IMG/VR virus record: IMGVR_UViG_3300035070_002978
Coordinates: 1-20,076 of that record
DNA length: 20,076 nt
DNA from: a virus
Reading direction: 5' to 3' (one strand)
This document shows positions 1,916 to 20,076 of this stretch, one piece after another. Position 1 is the stretch's first letter. Each line of letters starts with the position of its first letter. A model generated the notes under the pieces. It made no database searches. It saw only the letters and a list, made by a program, of their open reading frames with translations, and was not told where the DNA came from. The translations under genes and the position numbers were made by a program.

Positions 1916-4177
1916 TTAATTGTCTCTATTTATTATAGTAGATTGATCTCCACTTTGTTTATACCTAGCAATACCTAAGTTTATTTTCTTTACTTTTCTT
2001 TCTACAGCAGGGCTGTACAAATTCCTATTCACTGCCATACATGCTAAGCCAGAGCTTATACTTGCATCATGTGCTGTTCTATTATTAATATCGAATGAAA
2101 CCCAGTCTTGTAGTGTTCTTTGAAAATACATATTTCCGAATCCACCTTCTTCCAGCGCTCCGACGTGTTTATCAATGTACCACTCCAGAGCAGATGCATG
2201 ATCTTGTTTTATTTGCTCACCCGAGTTTGGTACTCCCCCAATTTCTTTTTCAGTTATAGAAAGCTTGTTCCATACTTTATCAGGCCTATTCATTGAGAAT
2301 CCCCTATAGCCCCTTTTCTTTAAATGATAGAGCAGTCGAGGTTTATTATTCTCCGCTAATATTGGCATACCATAATATACGATTGCCATTAATATATCTT
2401 CAAAAAATATATCAGCGGTTGGGGGTCTTGATATATATTCTAAAAAGAATGTATGGGGTGGCGCATTTTCCATACTAAATTTAGTAAGCCCGTGCAATGC
2501 CCCATTCGATCCACCTCCACCAACTACTCCTGATATATCATAACTATCACACCCAAATGCCCCAACATGAGCATTTCCTGGGTATTTTATTCCATTTTTT
2601 ACAATTATATTGTTTTCCAGGTGTTTATCGGGTGTCCAAGATATTTGAAATCTTCCTTTGGGGTTTGGCACAAATTCTACTTTTGTATCTTTAATACCAT
2701 GCTCCCACTGAAAATTACCTTTTGTTACTAACCCTTGATACTTTGTACCTTCGTTATAATCTATTTGAGCGTAAAGCTTTGTTAAGTTAAATAAACTATT
2801 TTTAGCTTCATCTCTAAACGCATGCTCGGTAGATCTTGGATATTGTCTATAGAATTCGTTTAAACCATCTTGATCATCTTTTAACCCATCTACTTCATTT
2901 TCCCAATGCTCTAATACCCCTATTTCGATTACTGACCCATCTAAAGCAGTAACTGGTGTTTGTGGAGTATCAAAGACCGGGTGTCCATAAGAATCAATGA
3001 ATCCTTCGAAGTTCCATTCCATAGGAATGAATAAAGAATGTAGTCCAGAGCTTGTCTGTCCATTGCGATTTCTTCGGGTGACATCAGACTGCCCCCATAA
3101 TTTTTTAAAGTTGCTTCCACCCTTGTCTAATGCGTTAGAGGTAGAGCCCATCATACATTTTCCTATGATCCTACTACCAAGACGTAAACAAGTTTTTGTT
3201 ACACGCCAGTTATTTAATATGTTATTAGGTTTTTCCCACTTACCAGATTCATCGTGTACTAGTAATCTAAGCTTTTCCCCATCATAACTGTTATCTCCTG
3301 TATTCTTCCAGTCAATTGTAGTGTCAAGACCTTCCATAGAATCCATCATTTCTTGCTCAGGGTTTTGTCCCCCCTTAGCCATCATACCTTTCTTAGTAAG
3401 CTTAGTTGCAGGCACTCTAAATGCTAATTCTGTTTTCGGACGATCCATACCATCCTGTATAGGTTTAAAGTAAAAAGGATAGTTAAGTGAAATAGGAACT
3501 ACCTTATCCGTAAACATCTTCTTTGCATCCGCCCCTGTTTTAGATAAAATACCTAAACGAGCATCCCCTAGTTGTGTACCTTGATTAACCGCTTCACCTG
3601 AAGCCATAAATGAAAATCCAGAACGCCTGTTCTTTAGATAGATCATTCCATAACATCTAAGGTCTGCTTTACAAGCTTCCCAAAATAAATAAAACAATCT
3701 GTTTGACTCTCTAAAATCTGCTCTACCTACATCAATCTTTGAATGCTGTAAATATACCCAATGACTACCAGTGATATACGTGTCTTCCCCGTTGTTCTTA
3801 AACCAAAATCCTTCTGATCTATATTCGAACTGTTTCTCTATATGATCAATCCAACGGTCTTTAAAGAGTCCGGGTTGTCTTTCCCACTCGAATATACTCT
3901 TAATCCTAGAAAGTTCCTTAGGCTCGTCCTGTGAGGTCCAGCGTTGTTCTTTCTTAGCAGATGAATTCTTATAAACTTTTTTTGGGGCAGCGGGTAAGGC
4001 TATTACTAATCCTTGAATATCATAAAGCTCACCAATAGTACCGTCTTTACTAATAATAACCACGTCATGATCTTTATTGTAACCATACTCCCACTTTTTA
4101 GATTTGTTAAGTCTTTTAATTTTATTAGCAGGTATAGGAGTCACAACTTTATACAGTGTTTGCTCGTATCTAACCAT
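1916..4177 (-). CDS. Terminase large subunit (packaging ATPase/nuclease)
   Basis: The protein has 753 residues, large for TerL but matching the ~750-residue type of crAss-like phages. TerL powers DNA translocation into the prohead and cuts the concatemer. A deviant Walker A-like loop is seen at about residues 181-190 (LKNRRSGFSF). A Walker B with catalytic acid, LLVHDESGKW, lies at 305-314 (D309, E310). A coupling-type segment MMGSTSN follows at 342-348. The C-terminal RNase H-like nuclease is suggested by GCDSYD at 542-547 (D544) and ILAENN at 606-611 (E609). The N-terminal KDGTIGELYDIQGL stretch is typical of this subtype. It starts one base after the preceding stop (TAG-T-ATG) and ends one base before the portal start, giving a tight packaging cassette. 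No frameshift or missing key acid was seen. Confidence 0.9.
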   Translation of the reverse strand: MVRYEQTLYKVVTPIPANKIKRLNKSKKWEYGYNKDHDVVIISKDGTIGELYDIQGLVIALPAAPKKVYKNSSAKKEQRWTSQDEPKELSRIKSIFEWERQPGLFKDRWIDHIEKQFEYRSEGFWFKNNGEDTYITGSHWVYLQHSKIDVGRADFRESNRLFYLFWEACKADLRCYGMIYLKNRRSGFSFMASGEAVNQGTQLGDARLGILSKTGADAKKMFTDKVVPISLNYPFYFKPIQDGMDRPKTELAFRVPATKLTKKGMMAKGGQNPEQEMMDSMEGLDTTIDWKNTGDNSYDGEKLRLLVHDESGKWEKPNNILNNWRVTKTCLRLGSRIIGKCMMGSTSNALDKGGSNFKKLWGQSDVTRRNRNGQTSSGLHSLFIPMEWNFEGFIDSYGHPVFDTPQTPVTALDGSVIEIGVLEHWENEVDGLKDDQDGLNEFYRQYPRSTEHAFRDEAKNSLFNLTKLYAQIDYNEGTKYQGLVTKGNFQWEHGIKDTKVEFVPNPKGRFQISWTPDKHLENNIIVKNGIKYPGNAHVGAFGCDSYDISGVVGGGGSNGALHGLTKFSMENAPPHTFFLEYISRPPTADIFFEDILMAIVYYGMPILAENNKPRLLYHLKKRGYRGFSMNRPDKVWNKLSITEKEIGGVPNSGEQIKQDHASALEWYIDKHVGALEEGGFGNMYFQRTLQDWVSFDINNRTAHDASISSGLACMAVNRNLYSPAVERKVKKINLGIARYKQSGDQSTIINRDN

Positions 4178-13564: not shown

Positions 13565-13855
13565 TTATTTTTCGATAGCAACTAGGTCACCCAGTTTTAA
13601 TACTTTGAGGGGTTGGTCGTCTGTCCATCGGACCTCATGACCCGCGTGTCTATCATAATGAATGATGTCCCCTTCTTCGATTTGTACTGGTTCTCCTTGC
13701 ATCTCTTTGATAACTCGTCCTCCGACTGAAACTACCTTCCCGGTTAGATATCTTAATTCTTTGTCTAACTCTTGCGAGAGTTGCAACCCACCTGCTACCG
13801 TGTGATCTTTTTTCTTTATTGGGTCTATTACTATGTGAAAGTTTAATGCTTGCAT
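13565..13855 (-). CDS. groES: GroES-type co-chaperonin
   Basis: The protein has 96 residues, the normal Cpn10 length (~97). GroES forms a heptameric lid over GroEL. The N-terminal strand FHIVIDPIKKK fits. Residues 16-33 are a plausible mobile loop with AGGLQL (21-26), where the Gly-Gly plus hydrophobic tripeptide (LQL instead of the usual IVL) binds the GroEL apical domain. TGKVVSVGG (38-46), VQIEEGDIIHYDRHAGHEV (57-75) and KLGDLVAIEK at the end follow the barrel order. The middle position of the tripeptide is Gln, which is unusual. It starts three bases after the GroEL stop, so the gene order is GroEL then GroES, the reverse of the usual bacterial order. It is a real co-chaperonin by pattern; partner specificity is inferred. 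Confidence 0.9.
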   Translation of the reverse strand: MQALNFHIVIDPIKKKDHTVAGGLQLSQELDKELRYLTGKVVSVGGRVIKEMQGEPVQIEEGDIIHYDRHAGHEVRWTDDQPLKVLKLGDLVAIEK

Positions 13856-13858
13856 TGC

Positions 13859-15421
13859 TTACGATTTAATTTTATTAGATAATATCGCATCTGTTGAGAT
13901 GATTGTTGTAATAACGCTTACTGCATTCTTTAAAGCTGTTTTAGTAACTAATACTGGATCTATAATTCCAGCTTCTACCATATTTACAATTTCGCCGGAA
14001 ATTACGTCTAAGCCTGTGCCTGGAGAGTTTTGTAATTGTCCGAGGACTGGATCTGATAGTAATATATCCGCGTTAGCTAGTATTGTCTTAAATGGGGCTT
14101 GAATTGCCTTTGCTAGTACTGTTCCTTCTATTGCGTAAGAAGCATTTAGTAATGCGATACCACCTCCTGGTACAATACCTTCTTTAATTGCGGCTTTCAC
14201 TGCGTACATGGCATCTTCTATTCTATCTTTCTTTTCTTTCAACTCAATCTTAGACTCAGCGCCTACGTTGATGATAGATACAGCTCCTGCGAGTATATTA
14301 ATCCTTTCTTCTAATTTCTTTTTGATGTACGGGTTTTCTTCATTCTTAATCTTATCACGTACACTTTGTATTCTTTCTTCTGTGCCTTCTACTTCTGGTA
14401 CTTGAATAACTGTTCTCATTGAATCCGTTACAACCTGATCAACTTCACCTAAGAATGAAATATCAATAAAGTCAAAATCGTCGCCCAAAGCTTCGCTTAT
14501 GGGAGTTGCACCAGTTCTGAAAGAAACATCGTCAACTGTATCTTGTTTGGTCTTTCCAAAGCCTGGACAATCAATAACGTTTACTTTGATCACTCCCTTT
14601 ACCTTGTTTGATAACAATGTTGCTAAGGGTTGTTGTTCTAACTCACCGATAATAAGTAGAGGTCTGTTTTGTTTGATACAATGTTCTAATATGTTTTGTA
14701 TCTTTCTTATGTTGTTTAGCGGACTAGTTAATAACAATACAAATGGATTCTCTAACTCTGCTGTTTCTTTTTCTGTGTTCGTTCTCCAGTATTGTGACTT
14801 AATACTTGATTCGATGCGCATTCCCTTAACGGTTTCAACAAAGGTAGTTTCATCGATGCTATCCTTCATAATTACATCACCGTTTACTCCAGCTGCGCTG
14901 TATGCTTCCGAGATTAACTCTCCTAGTGGAACATCGTTATTTGCGGAAATAGTTGCGACGTCAGACAGTGTTGAACCTGTTACTTCCCTGGACATCGTAC
15001 TTAGCTGAGCCACAACGTCACTTAAACCACTATTAATTTCATTTGTCAGCGTCCGGATAGTTAAGGCTGGATCAGCTTTCAATGCTGCATCACATTCTTT
15101 TATCAATGCTTGTGCTAATACAGTAGCCGTAGTTGTACCATCACCCGCTTCTTTAACCGTTAGGCTAGCAGCCTCTTTTACCAGGTCTGCGCCTATGTTC
15201 TCAATTGGGTCCCATAAGATAGTTGCCTCAGCAACAGTTACCCCATCTTTAGTAATTAAAGGATTACCTTGGCCATCTTGGTATATCACAGTTCTTCCTG
15301 CTGCACCTAAGGTACTCTTTACAGTATCAGCTAACTCATTAATTCCTGCCATTAAAGCATCTCTACCTTTTTGGCCTCTAGTGATCTCTTTGATCGTTTG
15401 GCTTGGGTTGTTAAACTCCAT
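13859..15421 (-). CDS. groEL: Phage-encoded GroEL-type chaperonin
   Basis: The protein has 520 residues against ~545 in bacteria. It folds substrate proteins in an ATP-driven ring. Conserved elements are LGAAGRTVIY (38-47), ITKDGVTVAEAT (56-67, D59 equals E. coli D52), EAGDGTTTATVLAQ (91-104, D94 equals D87), SANNDVPLG (159-167), PLLIIGE (254-260), PGFGK (286-290), LAGAVSIINVGA (377-388), KKDRIEDAMYAVKAA (397-411, D403 equals D398) and GGGIALL (419-425). All three nucleotide-site Asp residues are present. Divergence is concentrated in the apical domain: the position of E. coli Y199 is Ile, while Y203 and F204 read Tyr-Trp. About ten residues are missing after GGGIALL. The Gly-Gly-Met tail is absent; the protein ends LSNKIKS. 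The gene lies inside the late operon, with GroES next. Confidence 0.95.
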   Translation of the reverse strand: MEFNNPSQTIKEITRGQKGRDALMAGINELADTVKSTLGAAGRTVIYQDGQGNPLITKDGVTVAEATILWDPIENIGADLVKEAASLTVKEAGDGTTTATVLAQALIKECDAALKADPALTIRTLTNEINSGLSDVVAQLSTMSREVTGSTLSDVATISANNDVPLGELISEAYSAAGVNGDVIMKDSIDETTFVETVKGMRIESSIKSQYWRTNTEKETAELENPFVLLLTSPLNNIRKIQNILEHCIKQNRPLLIIGELEQQPLATLLSNKVKGVIKVNVIDCPGFGKTKQDTVDDVSFRTGATPISEALGDDFDFIDISFLGEVDQVVTDSMRTVIQVPEVEGTEERIQSVRDKIKNEENPYIKKKLEERINILAGAVSIINVGAESKIELKEKKDRIEDAMYAVKAAIKEGIVPGGGIALLNASYAIEGTVLAKAIQAPFKTILANADILLSDPVLGQLQNSPGTGLDVISGEIVNMVEAGIIDPVLVTKTALKNAVSVITTIISTDAILSNKIKS

Positions 15422-15996: not shown

Positions 15997-16012
15997 GTTA
16001 AGTATTCTTAAC
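15997..16012. repeat. Inverted repeat overlapping an early promoter
   Basis: Perfect 6-base arms GTTAAG and CTTAAC surround TATT. The right arm overlaps the AACAC box of the first early promoter motif (16010-16014), so the repeat could be an operator that blocks it. Confidence 0.45.
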
Positions 16013-16038
16013 ACGGTTAGTTCTATATATTATAGTTG
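16010..16038 (+). promoter_or_regulatory. Early promoter motif, copy 1
   Basis: AACAC, nine bases, then TATATATTATAGTTG (11 of 15 to the consensus TATATATTAATAGTG without gaps, better with one base gap). It is in tandem with copy 2, about 90 bases upstream, both facing the first rightward gene. Confidence 0.5.
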
Positions 16039-16098
16039 TAAGAAAGTATGGTACTAGACATCTTCTAGATCAACGAGTAAGACTAAGCGAATTTCCTT

Positions 16099-16127
16099 AG
16101 CACGAAGGATAATATATAATAACAGTG
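16099..16127 (+). promoter_or_regulatory. Early promoter motif, copy 2
   Basis: AGCAC, nine bases, then TATATAATAACAGTG (13 of 15 to the consensus). It ends 37 bases before the ATG at 16164. Confidence 0.6.
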
Positions 16128-16163
16128 TAAGTAATTAATATTAACAATTAAATTTAAATACAG

Positions 16164-16547
16164 ATGGCAAAAGCAATCAAAGCAGTAAAAGAAGTAACTG
16201 AAGTACAAGTAGTAAAAACAGCAGCTCAAGTCTACCAAGAGACTATTGCAGCGATGAGTCTGGAAGAGAAGCGAACGATCTTCCCTCCAATGGTCAAGGC
16301 AAACTTTGTAGTACGCAAATCATGGTACGGGCGCAGACAGATCATTAAGTTCACAACCAAACCAACCAAAACCCAACCAGCCATGACTGTTGAATACGAC
16401 CACGATATTGCCCTGGACATTATGCGACCTTTGTTAGAGACCAAGAATGCATGGCACAAGTATGGCTACTGGTCACAAAGTACTAACATCCCATTGATCT
16501 TACGTCATAGAGACTTAATGACTATACCAAAACCAGTCAAGAAGTAA
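16164..16547 (+). CDS. Unknown small protein, first early gene
   Basis: The protein has 127 residues. The first 25 are Lys/Val/Ala-rich (AKAIKAVKEVTEVQVVKTAA), followed by a compact region with FVVRKSWYGRRQIIKFTTKP and MTVEYDHDIALDIMRPLL, then WHKYGYWSQS and a basic proline-containing tail. It is basic overall, with no recognisable catalytic or membrane motif. It follows two tandem promoter motifs and is the most promoter-proximal rightward gene, so it is likely expressed immediately on infection. The stop is one base from the start of the next tiny gene. The function is unknown; a DNA/RNA or host-polymerase interaction would fit its charge but is speculation. Confidence 0.75.
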   Translation: MAKAIKAVKEVTEVQVVKTAAQVYQETIAAMSLEEKRTIFPPMVKANFVVRKSWYGRRQIIKFTTKPTKTQPAMTVEYDHDIALDIMRPLLETKNAWHKYGYWSQSTNIPLILRHRDLMTIPKPVKK

Positions 16548-16548
16548 T

Positions 16549-16632
16549 ATGAATAAAATTAATAACCAAATCAGGGTGACTGTGATAGTCGCAATCATCC
16601 TGATCATTTTAAGAGCAATGTGCCCATACTAA
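16549..16632 (+). CDS. 27-residue single-span membrane peptide
   Basis: An ATG one base after the previous stop (TAA-T-ATG) opens 27 codons: MNKINNQIR, then a hydrophobic segment VTVIVAIILIILRAM, then CPY and TAA. The charge pattern (basic N-terminus, uninterrupted aliphatic core) fits a small inner-membrane peptide. The coupling junction matches those between other genes in this window, which supports real translation. It is too short to identify; a role as an early membrane-acting or superinfection factor is only a guess. Confidence 0.5.
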   Translation: MNKINNQIRVTVIVAIILIILRAMCPY

Positions 16633-16652
16633 TAATTAAAACCAAATACACC

Positions 16653-16862
16653 ATGTCAAAGACTTATAAAGTACGCAACGGATTAAAGTATCAACCAGTG
16701 AAACAATACAACCCAAATGGGACTTACAGAGCAACTGAGATCATCGTGACCAAGACGATTGAAGCTGACACAGACTCTGAGATTAAAGCCCCGTGGTCCA
16801 CACGCTTAAAGCTATTCGTTCAGGATCTTGGTCGAGGTGCAGCATACGCAATCAAGCGATGA
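16653..16862 (+). CDS. Unknown basic small protein
   Basis: The protein has 69 residues from MSKTYKVRNGLKYQPVKQY. The frame is open from an ATG at 16620, but that start lies inside the membrane-peptide gene and gives an unlikely MPILIIKTKYT extension, so 16653 is preferred. The sequence is beta-like at the N-terminus (YKVRNGLKYQPV), then TEIIVTKTIEAD, with a basic amphipathic C-terminus (WSTRLKLFVQDLGRG, ending IKR). No known motif. It probably shares the transcript of the first two early genes. Function unknown. Confidence 0.65.
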   Translation: MSKTYKVRNGLKYQPVKQYNPNGTYRATEIIVTKTIEADTDSEIKAPWSTRLKLFVQDLGRGAAYAIKR

Positions 16863-16880
16863 TACCTGGTAGTGCTGGTA

Positions 16881-16890
16881 TGCTATACAC
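16881..16890 (+). repeat. TGCTATACAC repeat, copy 1
   Basis: This ten-mer recurs at 17406-17415, 17434-17443 and (inside a gene) 19091-19100. The three intergenic copies are preceded by A and lie 26-68 bases upstream of an early promoter AACAC box, so they may be binding sites for a regulator. Confidence 0.5.
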
Positions 16891-16906
16891 ACCACATGCT
16901 TAACTA

Positions 16907-16935
16907 AACACGATCAGAATAATATAATATTACTG
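16907..16935 (+). promoter_or_regulatory. Early promoter motif, copy 3
   Basis: AACAC, nine bases, then AATATAATATTACTG (11 of 15 to the consensus). It ends 35 bases before the ATG at 16971. The match is weaker than in copies 4-6, but the spacing is exact. Confidence 0.5.
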
Positions 16936-16970
16936 AATAACAACGAGTATTAACTTTAATCTAAATAACT

Positions 16971-17336
16971 ATGTTTAACACCAAAATTACCACTGAGTCA
17001 CAGGCTAAGTCATTCTTAACTACTATGCAGCACCTCTTCCCTCTGCTACATCCTCAATCTGATCCTTGTGATTTCTATCATCAAGAAACAAACAAACCTG
17101 TATTTACCCAAGAGCAATGTGAATACATAGATGATCGCTTTGAAGAATGCTTCGATATAATGCCTGATCCATGCAGTTTCATACTAAATGAGGTGCGACC
17201 TAAGATGCCTATGTTTATGACACCTAAGAAACCTGATGTGCTCGCAACTATAGATGATCTTAATCAATACCTACTAGGCAATGTCACTGCTAAAGGTCTT
17301 AAAATTACCATACAAGATCTACTAACTAAATTCTAA
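16971..17336 (+). CDS. Unknown small acidic protein
   Basis: The protein has 121 residues and starts MFNTKITTESQAKSFLTTM. A helical N-terminus is followed by a Cys/His-containing middle (DPCDFYHQ, EQCEYIDDRFEECFDI, DPCSFI). Four Cys and a His in a 50-residue span could bind a metal, but the spacing matches no zinc motif I know. The C-terminus (DVLATIDDLNQYLLGN, then LKITIQDLLTKF) is helical. It has its own promoter motif upstream and a strong terminator just downstream, so it is a single-gene transcription unit. Confidence 0.7.
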   Translation: MFNTKITTESQAKSFLTTMQHLFPLLHPQSDPCDFYHQETNKPVFTQEQCEYIDDRFEECFDIMPDPCSFILNEVRPKMPMFMTPKKPDVLATIDDLNQYLLGNVTAKGLKITIQDLLTKF

Positions 17337-17343
17337 TAACCCT

Positions 17344-17366
17344 GGCTCACTTCGGTGGGCCTTTTT
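17344..17366 (+). terminator. Rho-independent terminator
   Basis: GGCTCAC, loop TTCG, GTGGGCC gives a 7-base stem with one G-T pair and a stable UUCG tetraloop, then a run of five T. It lies seven bases after the stop at 17336. Confidence 0.9.
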
Positions 17367-17405
17367 ATTTTACTTTTAGTCGGTAACCTAACGGTCTAGG
17401 ATAAA

Positions 17406-17443
17406 TGCTATACACAGTGACATACGGGTGCAATGCTATACAC
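17406..17443 (+). repeat. TGCTATACAC repeat, copies 2 and 3
   Basis: Two exact copies at 17406-17415 and 17434-17443, start to start 28 bases apart, in the gap between the terminator and early promoter copy 4. Between and after them are CATACGGGTG and a GGTATCTAGGCGGATC stretch with no gene. Confidence 0.55.
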
Positions 17444-17473
17444 GGTATCTAGGCGGATCAGGTGAGATCTACC

Positions 17474-17502
17474 AACACGTACAAGATTATATATTAATAG
17501 TG
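17474..17502 (+). promoter_or_regulatory. Early promoter motif, copy 4
   Basis: AACAC, nine bases, then TATATATTAATAGTG (exact consensus), followed by AATTTAAAA. It ends 19 bases before the ATG at 17521, directly downstream of a terminator, as expected for a new transcription unit. Copy 6 shares 24 consecutive bases with it. Confidence 0.75.
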
Positions 17503-17520
17503 AATTTAAAATAGCGAAAC

Positions 17521-17751
17521 ATGAGTGCAAAACAGAAAACTAGGTATTATTGGAGTGAAGATACCATAACACACTTTCAATTCACTAGCAATTACCTCAA
17601 CGAGATGGAACTATTAAGTAACATAGAGGAATTCATAGAACTAAACTGTGATTACTATATAAGTGAGGATCCCGAAGATGATTTCAGGGGATGTGTAGAA
17701 GACCTGTGGTTAGCAGTAACTGGGGAAATAGTAACAATCGAGGATATATAG
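17521..17751 (+). CDS. Small acidic protein, paralogue of the gene at 18671
   Basis: The protein has 76 residues and is strongly acidic (runs such as SEDPEDDF). YYWSEDTITHF near the N-terminus matches FHWNEDTIEYF in the 68-residue protein at 18671, and both continue with a helical, acidic C-terminal half (GCVEDLWLAV here, YQELIEDLI there). This suggests a duplicated small family. Acidic small early proteins often mimic DNA or bind host enzymes, but nothing in this sequence proves that. It is a single-gene unit bounded by promoter copy 4 and a hairpin at 17754. Confidence 0.7.
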   Translation: MSAKQKTRYYWSEDTITHFQFTSNYLNEMELLSNIEEFIELNCDYYISEDPEDDFRGCVEDLWLAVTGEIVTIEDI

Positions 17752-17753
17752 TC

Positions 17754-17811
17754 AAAAAGGTGACGTTAGGGGGGTAATATATATAATAACACCCTTGTGA
17801 CACCTTTTTTT
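17754..17811 (+). terminator. Long hairpin followed by T-run
   Basis: AAAAAGGTG (17754-17762) pairs perfectly with CACCTTTTT (17801-17809), with more pairing inside (AGGGGGGT with ACACCCTT, imperfect) and an AT-rich tip. It starts three bases after the stop at 17751. The stem and T-run fit a terminator; the A-run on the other side makes it potentially bidirectional. Confidence 0.65.
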
Positions 17812-17927
17812 AGGAAATTATGGTTTATACATAGTGAGACCTGACTTTACACCTGTCTTCTTCTTTTATCACTTTAACATTAGTATTACTTTAGAGTAAA
17901 GATCTAGTATAGGTAACGTTGTGGATT

Positions 17928-17978
17928 AACCAAGTAAAAACATAGAAATAAATTAGTAACCTTAAAAACCAAGTAAAA
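17928..17978 (+). repeat. Direct repeat AACCAAGTAAAA before the gene at 17983
   Basis: The 12-mer occurs at 17928-17939 and 17967-17978, 39 bases apart, and the second ends five bases before the ATG. No early promoter motif is found in this 170-base gap, so this gene may be controlled differently. The gap also has CTTTA-GAG-TAAAG, a weak hairpin. Confidence 0.45.
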
Positions 17979-17982
17979 CCTT

Positions 17983-18408
17983 ATGAATCAAGTAATTATA
18001 ATAAAAAATGGTAGTATCGATGTAGTAACCAATAATGGACTTTCATTGACAGAAGTTTCAAGTGTACTTCAGAAGAAAAAAGGTACAGTTATACTGTCGT
18101 TAGAATTTGAAGGAAAACAATGGTTATTCGGTAGCTATAGGAGTGGAATGGTACGTAAATTGCCTAGTAAATCGAGTAAATGTGGTGGTATTTACCAACT
18201 TAATCGAGTAATAAAGGTTAAAAAGACTTATTTCTGGCAAGGTAAGAAGTATCCAGGTGAGTTTCACGAAAGAGTATTAATTCCCGATGCTATAGATAGA
18301 CTGAATTATCTTATGGAATACATAGATAGAAACTATGGATATTATTTTAGAGGAGATATAGTAGAGTTAGTTTCTCTAACTGAAAAGAGGAGAATAGAAA
18401 GTTGTTAA
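17983..18408 (+). CDS. Unknown small protein
   Basis: The protein has 141 residues and is basic in the middle. The N-terminal half is beta-like (MNQVIIIKNGSIDVVTNNG, then KGTVILSLEFEGKQWLFGSY), followed by RKLPSKSSKCGG, YQLNRVIKVKKTYFWQGKKY and a helical C-terminus (DAIDRLNYLMEYIDRNYG). No known domain recognised. It is preceded by a direct repeat instead of the early promoter motif and is followed within four bases by promoter copy 5. Function unknown. Confidence 0.7.
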   Translation: MNQVIIIKNGSIDVVTNNGLSLTEVSSVLQKKKGTVILSLEFEGKQWLFGSYRSGMVRKLPSKSSKCGGIYQLNRVIKVKKTYFWQGKKYPGEFHERVLIPDAIDRLNYLMEYIDRNYGYYFRGDIVELVSLTEKRRIESC

Positions 18409-18411
18409 CCC

Positions 18412-18440
18412 AACACAACACCGAATATATATTAAAAGTG
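18412..18440 (+). promoter_or_regulatory. Early promoter motif, copy 5
   Basis: AACAC, nine bases, then TATATATTAAAAGTG (14 of 15 to the consensus), followed by AATATTAATTTAAAA. It ends 25 bases before the ATG at 18465 and starts four bases after the previous stop. Confidence 0.75.
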
Positions 18441-18464
18441 AATATTAATTTAAAATCAAAGTAT

Positions 18465-18671
18465 ATGTCAGTAGAAATTAAGAGTTTTAAGGAAATTAAA
18501 AGAGGAAAACACAAAGGTAAAATCATAGTAGATTCTAGAGTATTTACTCCGTTCCTAATTGGAAAGATTCCTAACAAGTTTGGATTTAAGTATGATGCTA
18601 ATGAGGATCAATACGGGTATTACGAGTGGTTTAATAGAAAAGGATTAACTTACATTAACGTTCCAGTATAA
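18465..18671 (+). CDS. Unknown small basic protein
   Basis: The protein has 68 residues from MSVEIKSFKEIKRGKHKGK. The frame is open from 18402, but that start precedes the promoter motif, which settles the choice of 18465. It is beta-rich with KIIVDSRVFTPFLIGKIP, then FGFKYDANEDQYGYYEWFNR and TYINVPV. The compact size and alternating strands suggest a small barrel, but no family is recognised. Its stop overlaps the next start (TAATG), so the two are translationally coupled, and it heads a four-gene unit. Confidence 0.7.
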   Translation: MSVEIKSFKEIKRGKHKGKIIVDSRVFTPFLIGKIPNKFGFKYDANEDQYGYYEWFNRKGLTYINVPV

Positions 18672-18877
18672 TGGGAAGTAACATAGAAGTTGGTAAACAA
18701 CCAGGATTTCACTGGAATGAAGACACTATAGAGTACTTCAAGTCTAAGAATAAACTAGGATGTGAAGGGGATTATGTCAGAGCGATCACAGACTTTGTAT
18801 ATAGAGATTGTACATTGGAAGACGGTGAAACTTACCAGGAATTAATAGAGGATTTAATCAGTAAAACAAGAAGATAA
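18671..18877 (+). CDS. Small acidic protein, paralogue of the gene at 17521
   Basis: The protein has 68 residues. GFHWNEDTIEYFKSKNK aligns with the start of the 76-residue protein at 17521 (W-[SN]-E-D-T-I-x-[HY]-F), and a second helix carries DYVRAITDFVYRDC. Both are acidic with a C-terminal ELIEDLI-type helix. It overlaps the previous stop by one base and its own stop is one base before the next start (TAA-C-ATG). Function unknown. Confidence 0.7.
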   Translation: MGSNIEVGKQPGFHWNEDTIEYFKSKNKLGCEGDYVRAITDFVYRDCTLEDGETYQELIEDLISKTRR

Positions 18878-18878
18878 C

Positions 18879-19190
18879 ATGGTGCTACAAGAAATAACTA
18901 CATTTCGACCGAGTTCATTTCACGGTGATACAATTAGAACAACTCCGGATAAACTAATGAGATTATGGGATGCGGTAGGTATCGAATATTACTCAAATAA
19001 TGATGGAGAAGACAAAACGAATTTTGATTTCGGTGGACAAATAAAAGATATACCATTCTATGTCTATGATTGTAAGGAGTACCGTCCTTGTGCTATACAC
19101 GAAACCTTAACATTTCATATAGGTGCAGAAGATCAGACTAAATCTAGATGGGCAGTAAAATTATTAGAGGAATTATTAACAAATTATTAG
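18879..19190 (+). CDS. Unknown small phage protein
   Basis: The protein has 103 residues, starting MVLQEITTFRPSSFHGDTIR. It contains LMRLWDAVGIEYYSNNDGED, then NFDFGGQIKDIPFYVYDCKEYR, a pattern (core strand, FYVYD-x-KEYR) I associate with uncharacterised phage early proteins, and a C-terminal helix (WAVKLLEELLTNY). No catalytic motif is seen. It is coupled to the previous gene (one-base gap). A TGCTATACAC ten-mer lies inside the coding sequence at 19091-19100. Confidence 0.7.
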   Translation: MVLQEITTFRPSSFHGDTIRTTPDKLMRLWDAVGIEYYSNNDGEDKTNFDFGGQIKDIPFYVYDCKEYRPCAIHETLTFHIGAEDQTKSRWAVKLLEELLTNY

Positions 19191-19196
19191 CATATT

Positions 19197-19484
19197 ATGA
19201 GAAAAAATTCAGGAGTATTCGAGATTACCCAACAATTTTGTAAAGAAGATGATAGATGGGTATTAATAGAGAGGGCACTTAGTGGTGGAATCGTGGGATT
19301 AAACTTTATGCAAGGGGATGATTTAAAGTTATTCAAAGAACAGTATAGTAAGAGTAATCCAGAACTAATGAAGTTCTTCAGGATTATTCAGAAGCATCTT
19401 TACCCTAACTTTTATGCCAATGGTAATAGAGATGTTCAATTTAATATACTTAATAAGATATTTTGGGCATTTGTAGAGTATTAA
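19197..19484 (+). CDS. Unknown small protein
   Basis: The protein has 95 residues and starts MRKNSGVFEITQQF, six bases after the previous stop. Helix-rich (DLKLFKEQYSKSNPELMKF, then FRIIQKHLYPNFYA) with a hydrophobic aromatic C-terminus (ILNKIFWAFVEY). There is no transmembrane segment of full length and no known motif. It is the last gene of the four-gene unit starting at 18465. Function unknown. Confidence 0.65.
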   Translation: MRKNSGVFEITQQFCKEDDRWVLIERALSGGIVGLNFMQGDDLKLFKEQYSKSNPELMKFFRIIQKHLYPNFYANGNRDVQFNILNKIFWAFVEY

Positions 19485-19491
19485 ACTTCCT

Positions 19492-19520
19492 AACACGCAA
19501 CCTAATATATATTAATAGTG
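19492..19520 (+). promoter_or_regulatory. Early promoter motif, copy 6
   Basis: AACAC, nine bases, then TATATATTAATAGTG (exact consensus), followed by AATTTAAAA as in copy 4. It ends 22 bases before the ATG at 19542. Confidence 0.75.
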
Positions 19521-19541: not shown

Positions 19542-19766
19542 ATGAATATGCAAGAAGTAAAGCAGTATCTTGAAAATGAAAAGAAAAAACGTGGTCAACA
19601 ACATCTTCAGGACGTTTTAGGGCGCTCTAGGGGAGAGCATATCCAACCGTTTACAGATAAACAATGGAATAAAATTCGGACTCGTCAGAAGTCTTTTTTT
19701 GCTAAAGGTAAATCTGCAGCATTTAATAGTATTTGGAAACATAATCAAGTAAAAATAGCCATATGA
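19542..19766 (+). CDS. Unknown small basic protein
   Basis: The protein has 74 residues from MNMQEVKQYLENEKKKRGQ. A GTG at 19518 in the same frame is part of the promoter motif and cannot be the start of a transcript that begins near there. It is very basic and helical at the N-terminus, with RSRGEHIQPF, then DKQWNKIRTRQKSFFAKGK and SIWKHNQVKIAI. A nucleic-acid-binding role fits its charge. Its TGA overlaps the ATG of the next gene (ATGA). Confidence 0.65.
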   Translation: MNMQEVKQYLENEKKKRGQQHLQDVLGRSRGEHIQPFTDKQWNKIRTRQKSFFAKGKSAAFNSIWKHNQVKIAI

Positions 19767-20076
19767 GAGAAATAGAATTATCCTTTGTTCAAAGGATCGT
19801 AAACAAAGTTAATTGTAAAGTAAACTTTACGAAAGAACTATGCCCTAGCTCGGGCTTGAAGAATAGATATGTAGTAACATCGCAAGAAATATTCCGCGGT
19901 ACAAATCCGAGTATGGCATTAGGGTTACGTTTAAAAATAGCGGAAGCTGCAAGAAAACCATGTATATTTATTGAAAATAAATTCTACTTTAATAGTATTG
20001 GTGGGTGGACAGACCCAGAGACTAATGAGTATTATGTAGGTGCTAACTTACACTTCTATAATCTTGATTCTGCAGT
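19763..20076 (+). CDS. Unknown protein, cut by window edge
   Basis: The frame opens at ATG 19763, overlapping the previous stop by four bases, and stays open for 104 codons to the edge. It starts MREIELSFVQRIVNKVNCK and continues with KELCPSSGLKNRYVVTSQE, ARKPCIFIENKFYFNS and GGWTDPETNEYYVGANLHFY. It is mixed alpha/beta with three Cys and no recognised motif. The C-terminus lies outside the window. Confidence 0.65.
   Translation, partial: MREIELSFVQRIVNKVNCKVNFTKELCPSSGLKNRYVVTSQEIFRGTNPSMALGLRLKIAEAARKPCIFIENKFYFNSIGGWTDPETNEYYVGANLHFYNLDSA

Follow-up and report, generated by a model that had tools for sequence, protein, structure and literature searches.

A probable phage-specific early promoter family in a 20-kb fragment of an uncultured virus, and its possible reading by a phage sigma70-family factor found in the relatives

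The 20,076-base virus fragment IMGVR_UViG_3300035070_002978 of IMG/VR, which was analyzed over its whole length and is called the window here, ends inside a block of small rightward genes that carries six copies of a bipartite element, AACAC-N9-TATATATTAATAGTG. These copies are very probably promoters of one family. The same family recurs in a large group of uncultured relatives, where it accompanies a gene for a sigma70-family factor, and a phage factor of this kind, working with the host RNA polymerase, is its likeliest reader.

Two of the copies, at 17474 and 19492, match the pattern exactly and have 24 bases identical; the copy at 18412 has one mismatch, that at 16099 has three (it begins with AGCAC), and those at 16010 and 16907 have four each. 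When both strands of the window were scanned for sites with up to four mismatches, six were found, compared with 0.13 expected in dinucleotide shuffles (maximum of 2 in 300). There was no window site at five mismatches, and from six upward the counts were at chance level on both strands. A matrix built from the six copies gave them scores of 28–39, with the next-best window site at 8.7. All six lie rightward within the last 4.1 kb, and the mismatch scan found no copy on either strand of the leftward block. An earlier note on this DNA had described this layout, with five copies 19–37 bases before a start codon, one in tandem further upstream, two sharing 24 bases and none in the leftward block, and each of these points was borne out (Table 1). 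The spacing is better written AACACG-N8, the AT-rich block standing at a constant distance from AACAC. The copies at 16099 and 16907 have TATAAT as their -10 hexamer and the other four have TATATT, and positions 27 and 28 are T and then G in all six, which agrees with the T-purine expected of the family.

Relatives were gathered from IMG/VR by a GroEL search that made no use of the motif, yielding 19 contigs. The early blocks of these contigs contain a recurrent element, TTACAAACTAAAYACG-N8-TRGATAATAT-N5-R, with spacing equal to that in the window; over full contigs it is almost confined to the early strand close to the GroEL divide, and approximately 40 kb of late genes are without it. A strict version of this pattern matched at least 120 stretches in IMG/VR, which hold 476 distinct sites, and a single strand was used in 116 of the 120. 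In 46 whole records, 185 of 186 strict matches were on one strand per genome, and a backwards control pattern gave none; wherever both were listed in whole contigs, the strand of the strict matches was that of the sigma gene. The earlier note had taken the motif for an early promoter, a view to be checked in relatives and to be given up if the motif proved equally common in late genes or on the other strand. The hundreds of copies before small early genes of the relatives, restricted to the early block and to one strand per genome, uphold that view. The motif was absent from MW202828, elemo, phi38:1, phi18:3, Panino, and phi14:2, and the window's exact pattern retrieved one match from IMG/VR, which is unrelated. 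Across 84,980 species genomes a strict pattern was found in 18 stretches, of which the multi-copy ones look like phage contigs and the single ones are near chance.

The placement of the element is also conserved. The first early gene of the window resembles the first early gene of the relatives (ca. 42% over 72 residues, E 1e-16 to 1e-15), and the distance from element position 28 to the ATG of this orthologous gene, 37 nucleotides (nt) in the window, is 37, 37, 37, 36, 40, and 32 nt in six relatives. Several relatives also have a tandem upstream copy like that at 16010, and the third window copy scores 18.4 on the matrix of the relatives' element. Judged by the boxes that they share at fixed spacing, namely AAYACG and the AT-rich block, found on the early strand only, the window copies are a divergent variant of the relatives' promoter family.

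The likely transcription start emerges from the position of start codons. The first usable ATG lies exactly at position 28 in 88 of 432 distinct sites, compared with 0–14 at each neighboring position, and in 55 of these 88 there is no further in-frame start within 20 codons. Of the 340 sites without an ATG there, 335 have a purine at position 28, a figure that is partly built in because the site-collecting matrix includes that column; the ATG peak is much less affected. Thus, transcription likely starts at position 28, which would make the AT-rich hexamer, TATAWT in the window and GATAAT in most relatives, a sigma70-type -10 box at -12 to -7; AAYACG would then occupy -28 to -23, and ACAAAC would serve as the -35 box. 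Most relatives also have a TTACAAAC box over -35, which is absent from the window copies. A TA-like box some 10–12 bp upstream of the start codon is an accepted sign of leaderless genes (PMC3160421). Some transcripts in the relatives should be leaderless, with the ATG at +1. The fixed strand, the fixed start-codon distance, the start-position purine, and the leaderless ATG at 28 speak for promoters.

Bacteroidetes do not use Escherichia coli-type promoters, and the Flavobacterium -7 element TAHHTTTG corresponds in F. johnsoniae to T-12, A-11, T-8, T-7, T-6, and G-5 (PMC6847099). The phage element shares with the Bacteroidota primary sigma promoters (-33 TTTG, -7 TAHHTTTG) the expected hosts, the -10 register, A at -11, and T at -7; however, it lacks T-6 and G-5, has AAYACG and ACAAAC boxes instead of -33, and does not fit the combination of TAHHTTTG with TTTG/TTG near -33. 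None of the window copies fits at -6 or -5, and in the relatives -12 and -8 do not fit either, in agreement with the misfit to the -33/-7 promoter asserted in the earlier note. We dropped TATAAATG as a host -7 box because the start would fall downstream of 88 start codons, so that leaderless ATGs would precede it. Close relatives that lack the sigma gene do use host-type boxes: at late genes, TATCTTTG-type boxes number 13 in elemo, with 1.6 expected, and 8 in MW202828, with 1.1 expected. In the sigma-bearing relatives and in the window, host boxes are near chance and no full TTG-TAnnTTTG promoter was found. Late genes of the relatives are preceded by a second sequence that looks like a promoter, TAATTATA. 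The sequence TTTAATTATATTATATCATG occurs upstream of the late gene adjoining the head genes (G001:38543, G005:34523, G012:39912, and G014:29092), in the place of the TATCTTTG host boxes of sigma-free relatives, and is a candidate late promoter class.

The sigma70-family factor of the relatives has 243–255 amino acids (aa) and contains regions 2 and 4 (PF04542 and PF04545); it matches a PHROG sigma family at 2e-20, and its PDB sequence matches are all sigma. A structure model from 52 sequences reached a predicted local distance difference test score (pLDDT) of 78, compared with 57 for a model from four sequences, and the top Foldseek matches of the 52-sequence model are all sigma subunits. Among contigs that bear the motif and measure at least 58 kb, 42 of 43 have the gene, and among eight references that lack the motif none has it; the one contig without it, G005, has its replication block cut off. 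When loci were fetched by sigma, the motif was found in 69 of 80, with 434 sites on the sigma strand and 5 on the opposite one. Most of the motif-less loci have less than 3 kb upstream, and L315 has a degenerate form; the proposal that L315/G056 is a sigma-bearing genome without the motif was rejected when seven degenerate sites came to light on its early strand in a looser scan. In total, more than 400 sigma-bearing stretches occur in IMG/VR. At L265:9963 and L288:9963 an early promoter immediately precedes the sigma gene, whose ATG coincides with the inferred +1, an arrangement that suggests leaderless autoregulation of sigma.

The recurrence of the element, its strand, position, and orthologous placement, and its likely start site can all be read from the sequence. 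As to the reader, boxes of the TATAAT type are not read by the Bacteroidota primary sigma, and we therefore lean toward the phage's own sigma70-family factor, bound to the core RNA polymerase of the host; since the group carries a sigma factor of its own, it probably redirects the host RNA polymerase rather than injecting one. The six copies very probably represent, in the window, a promoter family specific to these phages, and would drive the small early genes next to the early/late divide; the first sigma would come with the virion or from expression of its gene at a weak promoter of the host type. A broader program, in which host-type promoters are given up from the first genes on, a virion-carried or self-amplified sigma acts from the start of infection, early promoters have three parts, and early mRNAs are partly leaderless, seems doubtful as a whole; the presence of an early promoter immediately ahead of the sigma gene in two relatives would speak for self-amplification. 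If true, the program would parallel the virion RNA polymerase strategy, with a sigma factor alone in place of the polymerase.

The main doubt about the sigma reading is timing, and several observations weigh against that reading and against full membership of the window copies in the family. The sigma gene is usually downstream in the same block, a position that suggests a factor for later genes, and TAATTATA before late genes could be its real target. The link between sigma and promoter is correlative and comes from one lineage only, so that it could reflect shared descent rather than recognition; the covariation between sigma region 2.4 and -12 (G010 and L397 vs the rest) is suggestive, but represents a single evolutionary event. 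The window, a 20-kb fragment that ends inside the early block and is too short to reveal its own sigma gene, shows none. In addition, the window copies have T rather than G at -12 and therefore no GATAAT, as do G010 and L397, and they are without the CA at -35/-34 that is invariant in the ACAAAC box.

The timing problem lends its weight to a different scheme, in which host RNA polymerase with a host sigma, primary or alternative, reads the early promoters and the phage sigma serves late genes only, as in T4/SPO1-type cascades. Something must read the early genes at time zero, and the sigma gene sits downstream within their block. In sigma-bearing relatives the host box ahead of late genes has given way to a distinct late-type sequence, TAATTATATTATATCATG, and the window TATATT boxes agree with four of the six fixed -7 positions of the Flavobacterium consensus. 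However, TAHHTTTG (PMC6847099) is contradicted at -6 and -5 in the window and at -12 and -8 as well in the relatives, a host -7 reading puts the start beyond the 88 start codons, and the 18 stretches found with the strict pattern in the species genomes give no sign of a host regulon. We therefore consider a host sigma unlikely as the reader.

Distinctly less likely is a virion-carried RNA polymerase, as used in the crAss, phiKZ, or N4 strategies, which the earlier note had proposed in its crAss-like, phi14:2-type form. In the relatives the last gene of the late operon encodes a virion-type protein of 2,100–3,900 aa, as it does in N4 and crAss-like phages, and the AT-rich block followed six bases on by G resembles the AR9 early consensus AAATATATATTAT-N6-G (PMC5312081). 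The early promoters of AR9/phiKZ (PMC5312081) likewise have an AT-rich block ending at -7, six free bases, and +1 G; in contrast, the AACACG box is missing in AR9, and the multisubunit phage polymerase was not seen in the present group. The searches for a polymerase were made in the relatives and have limited sensitivity to a very divergent enzyme. Within that limit, no T7-type polymerase (PF00940) turned up in 30 motif-bearing contigs in a search that detected the positive controls T7 and N4; the giant virion proteins had no profile similarity to the phi14:2 and N4 polymerases; and no large conserved protein had an aligned DxDxD column, several giant proteins being without DxDxD altogether. 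Searches of the giant protein against Pfam, PHROGs, and PDB gave nothing useful. Thus, the virion RNA polymerase gene that the earlier note would have sought outside the window did not appear in the relatives, which encode the sigma70-family factor instead. Two related readings were rejected: a T7 promoter, which AATACG-N8-TAG resembles from -16 to +1, since positions 7–13 are free, PF00940 is absent, and the start codons point to position 28; and the AR9 late motif AACA-N6-TR, whose spacing differs.

The affiliation of the phage also speaks against a phi14:2-type system. Judged by its terminase, the phage is allied to Elemovirus and Pachyviridae: the 87 phage records matched are all Elemovirus, Pachyviridae/Pervagoviridae-type, or similar, and the crAss-like phi14:2, from which the motif is absent, is not among them, so that an alliance with Crassvirales terminases was not found. 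Identity is 61% to MW202828.1 (Manatee Spring) and 43% to the Flavobacterium elemo phages; further matches include Maribacter phage Panino and Cellulophaga phages phi18:3, phi13:2, phi46:3, phi19:3, and phi38:1, and uncultured IMG/VR contigs reach 70%. In a terminase tree the window groups with uncultured contigs and MW202828 falls outside, with modest support and long branches that make the window's exact place weak. The phi14:2 system is similar in belonging to a Bacteroidota phage with GroEL and giant late proteins, but it belongs to another terminase lineage, does not have the motif, and has a polymerase of which none is detectable in the relatives.

A phage DNA-binding activator at the upstream boxes, redirecting the host holoenzyme as T4 MotA does and leaving sigma unrelated to this step, would account for the strong extra boxes at -35 and -28/-23 besides the -10 box. 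The conserved 146-aa OG6, which adjoins GroEL, is annotated as a repressor in MW202828, and is present in 14 of 14 genomes compared, could be such a protein; however, it is equally present in motif-free relatives, no activator is tied to the motif, and an activator too would be needed at time zero, which makes this alternative highly improbable. T4 middle promoters (MotA box plus -10) do resemble the present family in joining a phage-specific upstream box to a sigma70-type -10, but differ in box sequence and position. That the copies are operators or other repeat sites (repressor binding, packaging, recombination) is very hard to credit: such phages carry other repeats, including a 16-bp palindrome before MW202828 early genes and TGCTATACAC, but fixed strand, fixed start-codon distance, a purine at the start position, and a leaderless ATG at 28 are features of promoters.

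Phage sigma70-family factors with their own promoter class, such as SPO1 gp28 and T4 gp55 (PHROG phrog_351), are already known as a kind. The gene of the relatives resembles them in having sigma regions 2 and 4 and in the confinement of the promoter family to sigma carriers. The proposed system differs in that its promoters stand on the first, apparently early genes and host-type promoters are nearly gone genome-wide. The novelty lies in the lineage, in a promoter of three parts that often gives leaderless starts and already serves the first genes, and in the disappearance of nearly all promoters of the host type; a literature search, largely without subscription papers, found no earlier report of a sigma factor in such phages. 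The proposal gives a large uncultured Bacteroidota phage group a concrete transcription program that can be tested and that none of the cultured relatives examined has shown. A phage sigma with its own promoters would illustrate how phages bypass the unusual Bacteroidota primary sigma, and would provide an orthogonal sigma-promoter pair in a phylum where expression tools are scarce. The host-type promoters of the sigma-free relatives at the same genes would make the evolutionary switch visible.

The leftward block of the window comprises portal, terminase, tail-type genes, holin, GroES, and GroEL, and the rightward genes are small (Table 1).

Table 1. Positions in the window of the putative promoters, the early genes, and marker genes of the late block
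Feature	Positions	Strand	Details
Terminase large subunit	1916-4177	-	Allies the phage with Elemovirus, Pachyviridae, and an uncultured sigma-bearing group
Phage GroES	13565-13855	-	With GroEL, first recognizable genes of the divergent late block
Phage GroEL	13859-15421	-	Query used for finding relatives
Putative promoter, copy 1 (tandem upstream)	16010-16038	+	AACACG 16010-16015; -10 TATATT 16026-16031; predicted +1 G 16038
Putative promoter, copy 2	16099-16127	+	AGCACG; -10 TATAAT 16115-16120; predicted +1 G 16127; ATG 16164, 37 nt on
First early gene, behind copy 2	16164-16547	+	Orthologue of the relatives' first early gene, which has the same promoter
Putative promoter, copy 3	16907-16935	+	AACACG; -10 TATAAT 16923-16928; predicted +1 G 16935; ATG 16971, 36 nt on
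Early gene behind copy 3	16971-17336	+	
Putative promoter, copy 4	17474-17502	+	AACACG; -10 TATATT 17490-17495; predicted +1 G 17502; ATG 17521, 19 nt on
Early gene behind copy 4	17521-17751	+	
Early gene without its own motif copy	17983-18408	+	
Putative promoter, copy 5	18412-18440	+	AACACA; -10 TATATT 18428-18433; predicted +1 G 18440; ATG 18465, 25 nt on
Operon of four small early genes behind copy 5	18465-19484	+	18465-18671, 18671-18877, 18879-19190, 19197-19484
Putative promoter, copy 6	19492-19520	+	AACACG; -10 TATATT 19508-19513; predicted +1 G 19520; ATG 19542, 22 nt on
Early genes behind copy 6	19542-20076	+	19542-19766, then 19763 onward; cut by the record end

A search with the protein of the motif-less early gene gave no relatives. 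By eye, a possible hairpin with a T run (GGTG...CACCTTTTTTT) was noticed at 17755–17810, 3' of the gene behind copy 4; it may end the transcript from that promoter ahead of the motif-less gene.

Other repeats were seen in these genomes. The sequence TGCTATACAC occurs four times in the window (16881, 17406, 17434, and 19091), compared with 0.05 expected, and one to eight times per sigma-bearing relative (G001, G010, G012, G014, G011, and L401), within and between genes and on both strands; none was found in MW202828 or elemo, and in L401 it overlaps the promoters' -35 box. The sigma-free relative MW202828.1 has a different repeated early element, with approximately ten copies of a perfect 16-bp palindrome, GTGTCGTTAACGACAC, at L004:43745-49870, mostly just upstream of early-gene start codons. 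In a distant relative, L023, another repeat, CACTGTACTGGAGTCTCTC, lies upstream of GroEL in 7–13 copies, depending on shared-word length. Among the sigma-bearing contigs, G030 (IMGVR_UViG_3300047157_000162, 129,537 bp) has two sigma genes, at 20760 and 83045, and because these are approximately 62 kb apart it is probably a dimer or a joined assembly of two phages. At G021:55767-56520 and G035:65743-66500, the sigma frame is split into two overlapping pieces by a frameshift or stops.

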